From the NCBI GenBank assembly GCA_025360105.1, contig JANYCT010000081.1, positions 23,035-87,034 of the forward strand: DNA of 64,000 bases. Direction: 5' to 3'. Positions 313-41,308 of this stretch are shown here, piece after piece. Positions within the stretch are counted from its first letter, which is position 1. Each line of letters begins with the position of its first letter. The position numbers and the translations under genes were made by a program. The notes beneath the pieces were generated by a model that had not been told where the DNA came from, made no database searches, and saw nothing but the letters and a program-made list of their open reading frames with translations. Origin of the DNA: Actinomycetes bacterium (GTDB taxonomy: Bacteria; Actinomycetota; Acidimicrobiia; Acidimicrobiales; Ilumatobacteraceae).

Positions 313-1884
313 ATGACAGACGAGGCTCATCTCGGCAGGTTACGGATGACGATTCTGCTCTTTCCCGTCTCGGTGTTCGTGATGTTGTTTGCGCTCCTTT
401 GTACCTGGGCCGTGGCCACACCCCGCTTTGCAGTGCCTGATGAGCCGGCGCATCTTTTCAAGGCGTACGGCACAGCGCATGGAGAGGCGCTCGGCGCGAC
501 GGTCGAGGGTTTTGCCCCGACGATCCGCTTGTTCGACGTGCCGCGTTCGATGGGCACACCGCATCTTCCCGTGGGCCGGGGGCTGCTGTGCTACTTCGGT
601 TATCCCGACGTACCGGCCGACTGCGCGATGGGTTCCGATGGCGCAGCGATTTCTACCGCTGCCGCCACACCACCCTTTTGGTACGTGATCATCGGCGGAG
701 GCGCACGTGTCGTCGGTGGCGCCACCCGGATTGTTGCGTATCGGATGATGAATGCCGTTGTGTGTGGAGCACTCTTTGCGTTGGCCTTTGCCATCGGCCG
801 TAACTCACGTCGTCGTCGTCTCACCCCACTGCTGCTGGTGGCGCTGACGCCCATCACGTTGTTCCTCGCTGGAGGAGTACAGCCGAGCGGTTTCGAGATC
901 GCCGCCTTTGCGGTGTTCTGGTCGTTGAGTCTGCATGTCGACCATCCTCGGGCGGCCACGGCCACCGGGGGATTCGCAGTTGGTGCGCTCTTTGCGGCGG
1001 TTCTGCTGTCGCGATTCGGCGCGGTGCTGGCTGTTGGCACGGCGTCAGCAGTGCTGGTCATCTTGCTGGGTAGCGCTGGAGTGCGCCGCTTCCTCAATCG
1101 TCGATTCCTTGGCGCGCTCTTCGGCACCACCGCTGCCGCAGTGATCGCGCTCGCCGCGTGGTCGCGCTTCGCTGGCGCCAGTGTGAACGACAGTCGCACC
1201 GCATCCAACTGGACCCGGTGGCATGTGATCACCTACACCGTTGGAGCATTGCCCGAGATCGCTCGACAGATCGTGGGGGTGCTCGGGTGGCTCGACACGC
1301 GTCTGCCGTTCGGCGCCTACCTGTTGTATGGCGTCTTCACGCTGATGTTGATCACGGGTGTTGCCCTCAGCCGGAATCGACGCCTCATCGCGGCGGCGAT
1401 TGCATTGATTGCAGCGCTGGCTGTAGTTCCAGTGATCGTCAATCTGATCAGTGCGCCAACGGCCGGTTTGATCTGGCAGGGTCGCTATTCGGTGCCGCTG
1501 TTCCTGGGTCTCGGAGTGCTCGGGATGATGGGCTGGGGTCGCTACGTCGAGACCTCAGGCGACGAATGGGTGTCGACGATGGTGCGGATCGCGGCATGCG
1601 TGTGCTTCGCCGGCGCCGAGGTGCTGGGCTTCTGGCAGGCGTTACGCCGCTTCACCGTGGGGGCGCACGGCAAGATCTGGCTCACCGAGCCGCTGCCGTG
1701 GCAGCCGTCGATCGCCCCGATGGTCCTGATCGCCGCCAATCTCGTGTTCGTGACGGGTCTGTGCGCCGTGGTGTTGCTCGGCACCCGCGCGCAACCGTCG
1801 ATCGGCTTCGAGCCGGGTCAGGTGCAGCGCGTCAGCGATGGCATCGACGTGGGCTGCGACAACTCCGACACGAACACTGCGTAG
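313..1884 (+). CDS. DUF2142 family integral membrane protein
   Basis: This 523-residue protein is strongly hydrophobic with roughly ten or more membrane segments. Near the N-terminus, at about residues 41-50, it has VPDEPAHLFK, the hallmark of DUF2142 proteins. These are predicted polytopic proteins often found among cell-surface polysaccharide genes and possibly GT-C-like transferases. The start at 313 is the first in frame. An ATG at 346, just before the first hydrophobic segment, is a good alternative. Its 3' end overlaps the end of the convergent membrane-protein gene by 67 bases. The family assignment is firm; the biochemical role is unknown. Confidence 0.8.
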   Translation: MTDEAHLGRLRMTILLFPVSVFVMLFALLCTWAVATPRFAVPDEPAHLFKAYGTAHGEALGATVEGFAPTIRLFDVPRSMGTPHLPVGRGLLCYFGYPDVPADCAMGSDGAAISTAAATPPFWYVIIGGGARVVGGATRIVAYRMMNAVVCGALFALAFAIGRNSRRRRLTPLLLVALTPITLFLAGGVQPSGFEIAAFAVFWSLSLHVDHPRAATATGGFAVGALFAAVLLSRFGAVLAVGTASAVLVILLGSAGVRRFLNRRFLGALFGTTAAAVIALAAWSRFAGASVNDSRTASNWTRWHVITYTVGALPEIARQIVGVLGWLDTRLPFGAYLLYGVFTLMLITGVALSRNRRLIAAAIALIAALAVVPVIVNLISAPTAGLIWQGRYSVPLFLGLGVLGMMGWGRYVETSGDEWVSTMVRIAACVCFAGAEVLGFWQALRRFTVGAHGKIWLTEPLPWQPSIAPMVLIAANLVFVTGLCAVVLLGTRAQPSIGFEPGQVQRVSDGIDVGCDNSDTNTA

Positions 1885-35036: not shown

Positions 35037-35393
35037 CTAGCTCGCGACAAGGGTGTATGCGGGGTTGAGCATGATGCGCCGGCCGCGTTCTTCACGGGCA
35101 ATGCCTTCGATGACCACGGCGCGGCCATGTTCGATGCCCTCGATGTGGCGTCGTCCGGTGAACACCGCAACGGCGTCTCCGGTGCCATCGGACAGCACTA
35201 TCTCGAGCGCCGGGGTGCCCTGCCGGGGTGCGACCCGCATGCGCTTCACTTCTCCGCCGATGCGAGACGAGATACGGCACTGCAACGCCACGATTGGCGT
35301 GAGGTCGAACGTTTCGAAGCGGGCCTTCAAACGTTCGGCGTCGAGTTCTTCGGGCTTGGTCTTCAAGCGGCTGGCGATGTCGCGCAGGCCCAT
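35037..35393 (-). CDS. OB-fold nucleic-acid-binding protein
   Basis: A 118-residue protein with an N-terminal helix (MGLRDIASRLKTKPEELDAERL) and an OB-fold resembling the tRNA-anticodon/RecG wedge type: LQCRISSRIGGEVKRMRV, LEIVLSDGTGDAVAVFTGRRHIEGIEHG and GRRIMLNPAYTLV. It resembles Rv2694c, which lies in the same neighbourhood of ceoC in M. tuberculosis. Its ATG shares one base with the stop of the upstream thioredoxin-like gene (TGATG), so the two are coupled. Nucleic-acid binding is predicted from the fold. Confidence 0.85.
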   Translation of the reverse strand: MGLRDIASRLKTKPEELDAERLKARFETFDLTPIVALQCRISSRIGGEVKRMRVAPRQGTPALEIVLSDGTGDAVAVFTGRRHIEGIEHGRAVVIEGIAREERGRRIMLNPAYTLVAS

Positions 35394-36016
35394 CAGTTGT
35401 TCCCCAGTGTTTCGGTCAGTGCCTTGTCGAGCACCGCAGGTTCCATCGCGCCAAGATAGGTCTTGGCGGTGCCCTGCGGCGAGACAAACACCCACGCGGG
35501 CTGAGCCGGCACACCGAAATGGGCGAAGAGGCTTCCGGTGCTGTCGTTCATGGTTGCGAAGGTGATGCCGTGACGATTGATGAAGTCCTGCATCGATGCC
35601 TCACTGCCGTTCCATGCCACACCCACGATGGTGACCTTGCCAGCCCATTTCTTGTTGGTCGCCTCGACCGAGGGAGCCTCACGGTTACAGATACTTCAAG
35701 TGGGTGCCCAGAACCAGAATGCCACGGGCTTCCCGGCGAACGACGCCGCATCGAGTTCGGAGCCACCTACGAGCGGAGATGAGATCTGCAGGATGGCCGG
35801 AATGGCGGCGGGCTGGCCTGATGTGGCGGGAGCGGTACCGAGTGCCGATGAGGGTGTGGTCGCCGGAGGTGCCGCGTTCGCTGGCACAACTGTTGTCGAT
35901 GTTGGCGACGGAACCGGTTTTGTTTCGGCGGCCGGTGACCCGACTGTGGCGGATGACCCGCACGATGCCACGGCCAGAGCGGTGACGATCACGAGACCGA
36001 GGCGCACGCGAAGCAT
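35393..36016 (-). CDS. Predicted selenoprotein: DsbE/MPT53-like thioredoxin lipoprotein
   Basis: One continuous frame of 207 residues if TGA at 35698-35696 is read as selenocysteine (U107). Residues 1-19 form a lipoprotein signal ending in the lipobox VASC (Cys19), and a Ser/Thr/Pro/Ala-rich linker runs to about residue 70. The thioredoxin fold follows: WFWAPTUSICNREAPS, GVAWNGSE, and VPAQPAWVFV with the cis-Pro. M. tuberculosis MPT53 has, from memory, WFWAPTCPFCNAEAPS, so U replaces the nucleophilic Cys and Cys110 is the resolving residue. Both sides of the TGA keep the family sequence, and a hairpin with a GGUC loop follows. It would be an exported thiol-disulfide oxidoreductase. The alternative is a pseudogene. 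Confidence 0.8.
35657..35678 (-). promoter_or_regulatory. SECIS-like hairpin downstream of the in-frame TGA
   Basis: On the minus strand, counting from the base after TGA, positions 18-39 can fold into a stem: G18-C39, G19-C38, bulged C20, U21-A37, C22-G36, bulged C35, then C23-G34, C24-G33, U25-A32 and C26-G31, around the loop GGUC (27-30, plus coordinates 35669-35666). Bacterial SECIS elements lie within the coding region just after UGA with a GU-containing apical loop, and E. coli fdhF also has GGUC. Pairing was found by eye. Confidence 0.55.
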
Positions 36017-38120: not shown

Positions 38121-39572
38121 ATGGCTGATATCACATTGCCGCAACTCGGTGAAACGGTCACCGAGGGAACCATCACGCGTTGGTTCAAACAGGTCGGCGA
38201 CGCCGTCGCGGCCGACGAGCCGTTGTTCGAGGTGTCCACCGACAAAGTCGACACCGAAGTGCCAGCCCCAGTTGCGGGCGTGTTGCTCGAGATTCGGGCT
38301 CAAGAGGGCGACACCGTTCCGGTGGGCGCTGTCATCGCTGTTGTGGGCTCGGCCGACGCCGTGCCGGCACCTGCACCGGTTGACGCCCCCGCACCTGAGC
38401 CAGCATCAGTCGCCGCCCCAGCTCCGGCGCCCGAGCCTGTGCCCGCGCCGCCGCCCGCACCAGTGGCAACGGCTCCGGTTGCTGCCCCGCCCGCACCCGT
38501 GGCGGTTGCTCCCGTGGCGGTTGCTCCCGTGGCTGCGCCCCCGCCGTCGCCCACAACGACCGAGGGCGACAATCGTCTGCTGTCGCCTGTGGTGCGCCGT
38601 CTCGTGAGCGAGCACGGCATCGACCCTGCCACGCTCCCCGGTACTGGGCCTGGTGGCCGGATCACGCGTGAAGACGTGCTCGATCACATCGACGCCCTTG
38701 CATCGAAGGCTCCGCCTGCACCGGAGGCCGAGCGCGTTGTGGCCGAGTTAGTGGCTGCCGCGGCGCCCGTGATGCCAGCGCCAGTTGCGGCGGTGGCATC
38801 GGCACCAGCACCACCCGCACCCGCACCTGCCACACCCGCCCCTGCCGCCATCGTCGGCGAGCGCGATGCTGTGGTGAAGCTCAGCAAGATCCGCAAGCTC
38901 ACCGGTGCACACATGGTGATGAGCAAAGGCGTGAGCCCGCATGCGTTCAGCGTTGTCGAGGTCGATTTCGCCAATGTCGACGCCACCCGCAACCGTGTTA
39001 AGGCCGAATGGAAGACTGATGAGGGTTTTGGTCTCACCTACCTCAGCTTCATCAGCCGCGCGGTGGTCGATGCGCTGCGCGAGTTCCCGCACCTCAACGC
39101 AACCCTCGATGGCGACAACCTCGTCGTGCACAACTTTGTCGATCTCGGCATCGCCGTTGACCTCGACTACACCGGTCTACTCGTTCCTCTCATCCGCAGT
39201 GCAGAGAGCAAGCGCCTGCGTGCCATCGCCCGTGAGATCAACGATCTCGGCACGCGCGCACGGGCGCGCAAGCTCGGTCCCGACGAAATCTCCGGAGGCA
39301 CCTTCACGATCAGCAACAACGGTTCTGCCGGCAGCGTGCTCACGATGGCCATCATCAATCAGCCGCAGGTCGCGATTCTCTCCACCGACGCGATCGTGCG
39401 CAAGCCTGTGGTGGTTCGCGGTGCCGACGGTGGCGAAAGCATCGGTATCCACCCCGTTGGCAATCTCGCAATGAGCTGGGATCACCGTGCGTTCGATGGT
39501 GCATACGCCGCGGGGTTCCTGGTGATGGTCAAAGAACTGCTCGAGACCCGCGATTGGGGTGCCGAGCTCTGA
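38121..39572 (+). CDS. 2-oxoacid dehydrogenase E2 (dihydrolipoyl acyltransferase)
   Basis: A 483-residue E2. One lipoyl domain occupies residues 1-80 with the lipoylated Lys42 in STDKVDTEVPAP. A long Ala/Pro-rich linker follows, then the peripheral-subunit-binding domain (LLSPVVRRLVSEHGID...GPGGRITREDVLDHI) near residues 155-190, a second Ala/Pro linker, and the catalytic domain ending SWDHRAFDG with His455 and Asp459. The single lipoyl domain favours a SucB/BkdB-like or actinobacterial shared E2. It follows lpd by 48 bases and overlaps lipBA by one base. The acyl specificity cannot be told by eye. Confidence 0.94.
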   Translation: MADITLPQLGETVTEGTITRWFKQVGDAVAADEPLFEVSTDKVDTEVPAPVAGVLLEIRAQEGDTVPVGAVIAVVGSADAVPAPAPVDAPAPEPASVAAPAPAPEPVPAPPPAPVATAPVAAPPAPVAVAPVAVAPVAAPPPSPTTTEGDNRLLSPVVRRLVSEHGIDPATLPGTGPGGRITREDVLDHIDALASKAPPAPEAERVVAELVAAAAPVMPAPVAAVASAPAPPAPAPATPAPAAIVGERDAVVKLSKIRKLTGAHMVMSKGVSPHAFSVVEVDFANVDATRNRVKAEWKTDEGFGLTYLSFISRAVVDALREFPHLNATLDGDNLVVHNFVDLGIAVDLDYTGLLVPLIRSAESKRLRAIAREINDLGTRARARKLGPDEISGGTFTISNNGSAGSVLTMAIINQPQVAILSTDAIVRKPVVVRGADGGESIGIHPVGNLAMSWDHRAFDGAYAAGFLVMVKELLETRDWGAEL

Positions 39573-41308
39573 TGAGCTCTGCCGCCGAACCGCTGCACGT
39601 GCGCTGGCTCGGTCGCGTGCCGTACGGCGAAGCGTTGGCGGTGCAGGAGGCGCTGTTCAGTCACGGCGCGCGGAATCACCTACTGCTGCTCGAGCATCGT
39701 CACGTGTTCACCTACGGCTCGCGGGCCGACATTGCATCGAATGTGCTGGTCGATCCGATCAGCGTGGGCGCCGAACTCATCCCGGTGAACCGTGGCGGTG
39801 ACGTCACGTATCATGGTCCCGGACAACTTGTCGGATATCCAATTCTCTCGCTCGGTGCGAAGCATGGTGGTCAGTCGGGCCCGGCCGACACCGTGGCGCA
39901 CGTTCGCAATGTCGAACAACTCGTGATCGACTCGCTCGGTGAGCTCGGCCTTGCGAATGCGGGACGCTTGCCCGACTATCCAGGAGTGTGGATCGATCCG
40001 ACGGGCGCGAACCCGCGCAAGATCTGTGCGATCGGAATCCGCGTGTCGCGCGGGCGCAGCATGCACGGGTTCGGTCTCAACGTGAACACCGATATGCGCT
40101 ACCTGCGCGAGTACATCGTTCCGTGCGGCATAGCCAACCGACCCGTCACCTCGCTCGCTGAAGAAGGCGTCGACGCAACCATGGCCGAGGTCGTCGATGT
40201 CGTCGCCCGCCTCGCCGCAGCGCGTTGGGGCACCGGCGCGATCGAACGCCAAGACGTCGCATGGCGCGAACGCGCCGACGATCTCTCTGCGTTCTCGCGG
40301 GGCGAAGGGCCCGGCGCGCCAGTTCGTTCAGCGGCCGATCACGGTGTGCTCGCGCCGCCTCCGTCGTCGAGCACCTCCGCTCGGCCCGAGCCGGTGCGGC
40401 TACTCGGTCGTCTGGCCCAGGCCGGGGTCACCGACGCAGTGGCGCTCTCGGCACGTAAGCCTGAGTGGTTGCGCCCGAAGGTGCACCATGGACCCGAGGT
40501 GCTGTCGTTGAAGCGCACCGTACGCGACCTGAACCTGATTACCGTGTGCGAGGAAGCCGGGTGCCCCAACCTCAGCGATTGTTGGGCCGACGGCACAGCG
40601 ACGTTCATGGTGTTGGGCGAACGGTGCACGCGTGCATGCGGGTTCTGTCTGGTCGATACCCACAAGCCGTTGCCGCCTTCGGCCGACGAGCCGCAACGTG
40701 TGGCCGAAGCGGTGGTGCGAATGGGACTTGCCCACGCAGTGCTCACGATGGTGGCGCGCGACGACCTCGACGATGGCGGCATGGCCCATGTAGCCGCGTG
40801 TGTCGAGGCAATCCGTCTCGCGCGACCCGAGACGCGCATCGAGACACTCATCTCCGACGCCAAAGGCGATGCCGCGTCGCTGTCGTTGCTCTTCGAGTCG
40901 CGCCCCGACGTGATGAATCACAACATGGAGACCGTGCCGCGGCTGCAACGCGCTGTTCGACCGTCAGCCGGCTATGCGCGCAGCCTCAGCGTGCTCGCCC
41001 GGGCCACGGCCATCGGGCTTACCGTGAAATCCGGCCTCGTGGTCGGCATGGGTGAGACTCCGGATGAGGTAGATGGCGTGTTGGCCGACCTCGCTTCGAT
41101 CGGCGTCGACATCGTCACCATCGGCCAGTACCTGCGGCCGACCTCGCATCATCTCCCCGTCGAACGCTGGGTCGAGCCGCATGAGTTCGATCGTTGGAAG
41201 GTGATCGGCGAGTCGTTGGGTATCGGCCATATCGAGGCCAGCCCGCTCACTCGCAGCAGTTACCACGCACGGCAATCTGCAGAGGCGGTCAACATCCGCG
41301 TCGGCTGA
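39572..41308 (+). CDS. lipBA: LipB-LipA fusion: octanoyltransferase + lipoyl synthase
   Basis: A single 578-residue frame. Residues 1-220 are a full LipB: EHRHVFTYGSRAD, GGDVTYHGPGQLVGYPIL, the catalytic Lys150 (RKICAIG) and Cys185 (VPCGIANRPVTSL). A Pro/Ser-rich linker spans about 240-275. From about 290 it is LipA: the auxiliary cluster Cys326, Cys331 and Cys337 (VCEEAGCPNLSDCW), the radical-SAM Cys352, Cys356 and Cys359 (CTRACGFC), and the closing RSSYHA with the cluster-ligand serine. No stop or frameshift separates them. It would attach octanoate and insert both sulfurs. The ATG shares one base with the E2 stop. Confidence 0.93.
   Translation: MSSAAEPLHVRWLGRVPYGEALAVQEALFSHGARNHLLLLEHRHVFTYGSRADIASNVLVDPISVGAELIPVNRGGDVTYHGPGQLVGYPILSLGAKHGGQSGPADTVAHVRNVEQLVIDSLGELGLANAGRLPDYPGVWIDPTGANPRKICAIGIRVSRGRSMHGFGLNVNTDMRYLREYIVPCGIANRPVTSLAEEGVDATMAEVVDVVARLAAARWGTGAIERQDVAWRERADDLSAFSRGEGPGAPVRSAADHGVLAPPPSSSTSARPEPVRLLGRLAQAGVTDAVALSARKPEWLRPKVHHGPEVLSLKRTVRDLNLITVCEEAGCPNLSDCWADGTATFMVLGERCTRACGFCLVDTHKPLPPSADEPQRVAEAVVRMGLAHAVLTMVARDDLDDGGMAHVAACVEAIRLARPETRIETLISDAKGDAASLSLLFESRPDVMNHNMETVPRLQRAVRPSAGYARSLSVLARATAIGLTVKSGLVVGMGETPDEVDGVLADLASIGVDIVTIGQYLRPTSHHLPVERWVEPHEFDRWKVIGESLGIGHIEASPLTRSSYHARQSAEAVNIRVG

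Follow-up and report, generated by a model that had tools for sequence, protein, structure and literature searches.

The analysed window, a 64,000-nucleotide stretch of contig JANYCT010000081.1 from an Ilumatobacteraceae genome (assembly GCA_025360105.1), carries on its reverse strand a predicted selenoprotein gene whose reading frame runs through an in-frame TGA (Table 1). Reading this codon as selenocysteine (Sec, U) yields a protein of 207 residues in which codon 107 is the sole internal TGA, the surrounding residues are WFWAPT-U-SIC-NREAPS, and the frame is closed by an ordinary TGA. The Pfam domains AhpC-TSA (residues 84-183, 48.5 bits) and Redoxin (80-176, 46.5 bits) both extend across the TGA, bearing out the original prediction, made from the letters of this DNA, that one frame continues through a single TGA. 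A phmmer search against Protein Data Bank sequences identified DsbF (3ios, 6e-25) and MPT53 (1lu4, 2e-23) as the closest among solved structures, and in these alignments the two Cys of CxxC face the TGA and Cys110, respectively. This agrees with the proposal that the TGA occupies the catalytic Cys of an MPT53-like CxxC and that the resolving Cys110 is intact, the latter being invariant in a 43-row protein alignment. The same alignment contains 17 invariant columns, with strong conservation both N- and C-terminal of the TGA. The proposed lipoprotein signal was also recovered, with a lipobox VASC detected by a crude rule that found one in 85 of 97 sequences, the window gene included. We regard it as very probable that the TGA is read as Sec and that the product is a thioredoxin of DsbF/MPT53 type, predicted to be exported and held by a lipid anchor, whose catalytic nucleophile would contain selenium. 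This reading draws on the open frame, the position within CxxC, the recurrence of the codon across the family, a covarying GGUC hairpin, and tRNA-Sec with selA and selB in the genome; the selenocysteine interpretation of the original prediction is supported.

Table 1. Coordinates of the predicted selenoprotein gene and its features in the window (Sec, selenocysteine; bSECIS, bacterial selenocysteine insertion sequence)
Feature	Position	Strand	Remarks
Predicted selenoprotein gene	35393..36016	(-)	Lipoprotein signal, linker, DsbF/MPT53-type thioredoxin-fold domain (residues about 71-205)
Signal peptide, lipobox V-A-S-C (Cys19), predicted lipid attachment	35960..36016	(-)	Crude lipobox rule
In-frame TGA, predicted Sec codon, residue 107	35696..35698	(-)	Aligns with first (nucleophilic) Cys of CxxC
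Cys110 codon TGT, predicted resolving Cys of UxxC	35687..35689	(-)	Protein alignment
Predicted bSECIS hairpin	35658..35677	(-)	3 bp + 1x1 mismatch + 4 bp (CCUC/GAGG), alignment columns 22-41; lower stem imperfect in window copy
GGUC apical loop	35666..35669	(-)	26 nt past TGA; identical in 97/97 main-clade sequences

The TGA is not peculiar to this contig. Some homologue was found in 147 of the 150 genomes of the family, the window's own included. When 105 TGA-bearing matches were read as DNA (30 loci from the family scan and 75 of 100 fetched regions, the window copy included), 102 had TGA at exactly the codon 107 site, the first Cys of CxxC, as the suggested alignment of homologues was meant to reveal; two (L122, L123) had Cys there with TGA elsewhere and one (L118) had no such site, and these three were left out of the site counts. 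The main clade, defined as sequences with the motif TCGGTCGA, comprises 97 of the 102 TGA loci from at least 96 genomes, three of which are single-contig (G012, G019, G038), while the other five loci belong to separate lineages. Because the clade was picked by TCGGTCGA, the uniformity of those columns arises partly by selection. The figure of 96 among 150 genomes is a minimum, and further copies may exist in the remaining 54. At the class level, a homologue was present in 277 of 296 genomes; outside the family, many among the matches listed contain a TGA, and the three that were read (L247-L249) all have UxxC.

A scan of named genomes with the query peptides WFWAPxCxxC or [NM]xEA[PAT]SVE confirmed 519 places; the best 80 of these comprised 66 loci with TGA and 14 with Cys. 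The motif TCGGTCGA occurred in all 66 TGA loci and in none of the 14 Cys loci, one of which (L228) is from a Mycolicibacter; since the scan peptides included SVE, the TGA loci were selected by these residues, though not by their codons. The TGA loci were mostly titled Ilumatobacter, Ilumatobacteraceae, Acidimicrobiaceae, or unclassified Actinomycetota, and the Cys loci Streptomyces, Nocardiopsis, Lentzea, Cellulosimicrobium, and similar. Five contigs titled Bifidobacterium breve (L178, L184, L187, L197, L199) carry the Acidimicrobiia-type gene, and their titles look wrong.

Downstream of the TGA lies a candidate bSECIS hairpin. When 97 sequences are aligned without gaps, the GGUC loop and the two innermost pairs are invariant, and across 94 distinct rows 96.7% of the cells of the 7-bp hairpin are paired. 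Double changes number 23 at pair 24-39, which takes the forms CG, AU, UA, and GC and whose columns are both third codon positions, and 4 at pair 27-36, found as CG and UA. None of 500 shuffles reached the covariation score of 0.173, and slid versions scored at most 0.080. The third positions of codons +9 and +10 are invariant in all 97 sequences, whereas at 19 other conserved sites the entropy averages 1.54 bits. Both codons vary among 40 rows with Cys, a set that includes many distant paralogues; in the 17 rows with Val as the second residue, its codon is GTG in 8, GTC in 6, and GTT in 3. A region model combining TGA and hairpin, run on 51 sources, scored 61.8 bits for the window, 40.2 for L117, about 27 for L247/L248, and no more than 21.9 for Cys rows. 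The published bSECIS model, as given in the available part of its source, combines a small loop having G in its first two places, a distance of 16-37 nt from the UGA, and a minimum free energy of -7.5 kcal/mol or lower (PMC13188914). The hairpin here resembles it in a loop that starts with G and lies 26 nt from the UGA, inside that range. With the 20-nt hairpin, 81 of 97 sequences pass -7.5 kcal/mol and the window copy does not; the core hairpin appears in the best fold of a 48-nt stretch in 81 of 97. On the alignment, loop and distance follow the model, and the window copy alone does so less clearly. The loop also resembles the GGUC loop of Escherichia coli fdhF. No Rfam match was found in the window at gathering scores.

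The source genome, which is 96.9% complete and comprises 105 contigs totalling 3.89 Mb, encodes machinery for Sec insertion. A tRNA-Sec scored 64.3 bits (cut-off 47) and was called tRNA-SeC with anticodon tca by ARAGORN; a further match to the tRNA-Sec model, of 71 nt, lies barely above the cut-off at 47.7 bits. The selA gene (389.3 bits, cut-off 267.9) adjoins selB (282.8 bits, cut-off 242.25). On contig C54 of the same genome, a formate dehydrogenase alpha subunit (L250) scored 635.7 bits against a cut-off of 666.25, the match lacking profile positions 1-50; it contains a single TGA, in CNRTUHAPSV, which we take to be the usual Sec site of this subunit, and a GGUC-containing stretch lies downstream. 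Searching the genome with the region model revealed no further selenoprotein, with this gene at 61.8 bits and the next match at 16.4 bits; the model is sequence-heavy, and thus unrelated SECIS elements are not expected within its reach. Across the family, 91 of the 96 gene-bearing genomes have a credible selA, as do 26 of the remaining 54 (Fisher p = 7e-11, which overstates the association because the genomes are not independent). This count leaves out two matches below 21 bits, whose inclusion gives 93 of 96. When the comparison is restricted to genomes of 90% completeness or more (77 in all), selA occurs in 50 of 52 with the gene and 12 of 25 without. Nine genomes having neither the gene nor selA were tested for selB, and in none did it pass the cut-off.

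Several observations weigh against the Sec reading. Two of the five measures computed for the hairpin are not decisive: the number of pairs with a double change, two, was matched by 117 of 500 shuffles, and a slide of +3 produced three such pairs together with 9 further pair types, the same number as the unslid hairpin. RNAalifold alone returned only a 4-bp core with a covariation term of -0.1. The 20-nt hairpin of the window copy, at -5.8 kcal/mol, falls short of the -7.5 kcal/mol threshold, and competing hairpins prevail when this copy is folded in isolation, with a pair probability of 0.07 (0.33 when folding from nt 24 on). The GGUC-loop hairpin of the original prediction lies at the stated place, and the copy in this gene is weak taken alone. 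According to the portion of the source available, -7.5 kcal/mol is a search setting, and some selenoprotein genes fall outside the model (PMC13188914). Of the machinery that the original prediction named for a search, tRNA-Sec, selA, and selB are all over their cut-offs; for selD there is a C-terminal fragment, truncated where its contig begins, whose 82.9 bits do not reach the cut-off of 125. In addition, 5 of the 96 gene-bearing genomes have no credible selA, and 26 genomes have selA without the gene. Among the five exceptions, G047 has a selB that passes the cut-off and lies at the end of a contig, and G095 a probable one (140.3 bits plus a C-terminal piece, below the cut-off); no selB was found in G006, G114, or G137.

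Public databases often split the gene. A profile search returned 296 proteins; among the 120 listed, a motif rule indicated that 100 begin just past the TGA, and the remaining listed proteins are full-length with Cys (17), Trp (2), or Leu (1) at the site. Seven tails were inspected individually. One of the tails, P0064, named for Ilumatobacter coccineus, equals that of L035 (single-contig genome) except that it starts with Met where the DNA reads ATC. N-terminal halves ending at the TGA also stand as entries (P0024, P0025, P0026, P0028, P0030). Automatic annotation thus splits the gene in many records, I. coccineus among them. Records of I. nonamiensis, like I. coccineus a cultured species, contain the gene as well. 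P0002 and P0003, with Trp at the TGA site, were apparently translated with another genetic code.

These records bear on how else the TGA might be explained. A UGA that acts mainly as a stop, with the tail made from its own start as a second gene or as regulated truncation, would suit the tails of 90-100 aa that stand as database genes, such as P0064, and the competition of UGA recoding with termination, recoding being 30-40% in vivo in the part of that report available (PMC4513850). The Met of P0064, placed on ATC, looks like an annotation artefact, a tail would be unlikely to form a thioredoxin fold without the N-terminal strands, and the hairpin is conserved; we give this explanation very little chance. 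Decoding of the TGA as Trp or Cys, via a suppressor tRNA or an altered code, has P0002 and P0003 in its favor and appears just as improbable. By a crude call of open reading frames (ORFs), TGA terminates 25 of the window's 40 long ones, as it does this gene, and a changed genetic code was rejected on this ground; tRNA-Sec and selA/selB are present, and the conserved GGUC hairpin would be left without a role. No tRNA gene lies within the window, and no genome-wide search for a suppressor tRNA was made.

The least credible alternative, which we consider negligible, is a pseudogene or sequencing error whose frame is readable by chance. The one internal stop would fit it, but the same codon recurs in 102 of 105 TGA-bearing matches, those from three single-contig genomes included, and in at least 96 genomes, which points to neither chance nor sequencing error; the 17 invariant columns and the frozen synonymous sites also argue against it. 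Base-call error and pseudogene were ruled out by this recurrence. The original prediction had named three ways in which it could fail, and none of them held: absence of Sec machinery, which the genome has (selD as a fragment below its cut-off); a miscalled base, which is contradicted by a TGA common to at least 96 of the 150 family genomes; and decay in relatives, which instead retain the TGA and the hairpin in a well conserved protein.

Insertion of Sec at UGA through SelB and a downstream hairpin is an established bacterial route in the part of the catalogue available (PMC13188914). By this route, SelB, bound to the GGUC hairpin immediately in front of the decoding site, would bring Sec-tRNA to the UGA, after which the protein would be exported and lipid-anchored. 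Outside the cell, to judge by analogy from the fold, Sec107 would act as the attacking residue on a client disulfide or oxidised sulfur, Cys110 would resolve the selenenyl-sulfide, and a CcdA/DsbD-type membrane protein would restore the reduced state. Sec107 may raise redox reactivity over that of Cys, as the original prediction proposed. We lean, by analogy, toward a reductase or repair role fed by CcdA rather than an oxidase role, because two CcdA/DsbD-type transmembrane proteins were found in the genome (about 97% complete) and no VKOR domain was; DsbB was not searched for. The same selenoprotein could instead drive disulfide formation in exported proteins, which we consider rather unlikely. 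Its closest solved structures are DsbF and MPT53/DsbE, and the excerpts available of one study describe M. tuberculosis DsbE and DsbF as aiding oxidative folding in vitro (PMC3853704), an activity that weighs against the reductase assignment. The search results for VKOR and CcdA/DsbD-type proteins disfavor the oxidase, as does selenol chemistry, which favors a reducing selenenyl-sulfide. Selenol chemistry also favors rapid attack, as far as the available text goes (PMC13188914).

A midpoint-rooted tree built from 71 domain sequences over 137 columns, a small number given the rows, recovered the main clade with support of 98/97; it comprises 32 Sec rows, with five Cys rows embedded among them in two positions. 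One nested Cys copy, L125, stands in tandem with its Sec sister L031 within a single genome. The hairpin has been lost from L125, the one nested Cys row whose DNA was read. Five HU-type Sec rows (L119, L120, L121, L124, L229 (match at 447)) form a separate clade (100/100) with a hairpin of their own, CGAGC-AGUUY-GCUCG, whose loop lies 34 nt past the UGA in 5/5. L247/L248 group with a Cys row (98/86), and L249 is unplaced. L117 groups with another Cys row (84/90, not firm); at 464-523 (-) it also has a GGUC loop at 26 nt, but with a different stem, CUGC/GCAG, and it lies near Cys paralogues. The direction of each Sec/Cys change is inferred. This extracytoplasmic thioredoxin family of Acidimicrobiia is probably a hot spot of Sec/Cys exchange, in which a Sec-DsbF clade that is old and lipid-anchored, its GGUC SECIS scarcely changing, has undergone at least two nested Cys reversions, further Sec lineages (L117, HU-type) exist, Sec was gained and lost repeatedly in proteins at work outside the cell, and databases miss the gene by cutting it at the UGA. 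If true, a whole environmental actinobacterial family would use selenium for redox work outside the cytoplasm, a task that other actinobacteria accomplish with Cys versions of this protein. Matched natural pairs for testing Sec retention versus loss, a long-standing question, would be provided by the parallel Sec lineages and the Cys copies nested in the clade, such as L031/L125.

An OB-fold gene (window 35037-35393, (-)) lies downstream and overlaps the selenoprotein stop codon by one base, perhaps being translationally coupled. With a single query sequence, this neighbor was found at 10 of 66 named TGA loci, and so it was excluded from the proposed system. Elsewhere in the window (39554-41308, (+)), a single ORF seems by eye to fuse LipB-like and LipA-like parts (octanoyltransferase, lipoyl synthase).

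What is new is the family-wide, overlooked occurrence of this selenoprotein, since broad UxxC headings, thioredoxin-like selenolipoproteins, and actinobacterial Sec use are already known. Our literature search found no Ilumatobacter selenoprotein or Sec-containing MPT53; it covered few subscription papers, so that an earlier mention is possible. Judged by titles, no Acidimicrobiia selenocysteine paper dealt with this protein. Within the portion available, a study of Sec-trait transfers names Microlunatus, Nakamurella, and Arthrobacter as the organisms involved and neither a DsbF/MPT53-type protein nor Acidimicrobiia (PMC5029168). The accessible text of a 2026 catalogue mentions no DsbE, DsbF, MPT53, actinobacter-, or actinomycet- (PMC13188914), and that of the marine metagenome survey no actinobacter-, other names not having been searched there (PMC2398784). 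Compared by heading only, three UxxC entries of the catalogue are broad enough to hold the family, namely 'Thiol-disulfide isomerase-like' (cd02966), 'Redoxin family protein' (PF08534), and 'Prx-like thiol:disulfide oxidoreductase' (PF00578) (PMC13188914), and Trx-like 1 (COG0526, UxxC) of the marine metagenome selenoproteins, likewise broad enough, shares the thioredoxin fold and UxxC (PMC2398784).

No NCBIfam model reached its cut-off for the window protein. ResA (NF002854, 50.1 bits against 170) and StoA (NF041202, 32.9 against 210) are thiol-disulfide oxidoreductases that share the fold. The Rcas_1661 family thioredoxin-like (seleno)lipoprotein (NF041057) is by name of the lipid-anchored type, so the type exists, but it scores 14.4 bits here against a cut-off of 190 and over residues 9-99 only. 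Exported selenoproteins, called rare in the original prediction, are less so in view of NF041057 and of exported formate dehydrogenases, which are known selenoproteins. The NF041057 family is entered as DsbG-like in the available part of the catalogue (PMC13188914). With regard to the bSECIS model, the window copy differs in a hairpin short of the energy threshold, and with regard to its nearest structural relatives, MPT53/DsbE (1lu4) and DsbF (3ios) of Mycobacterium tuberculosis, the difference lies at the catalytic site itself, where they carry Cys and the gene described here carries TGA.
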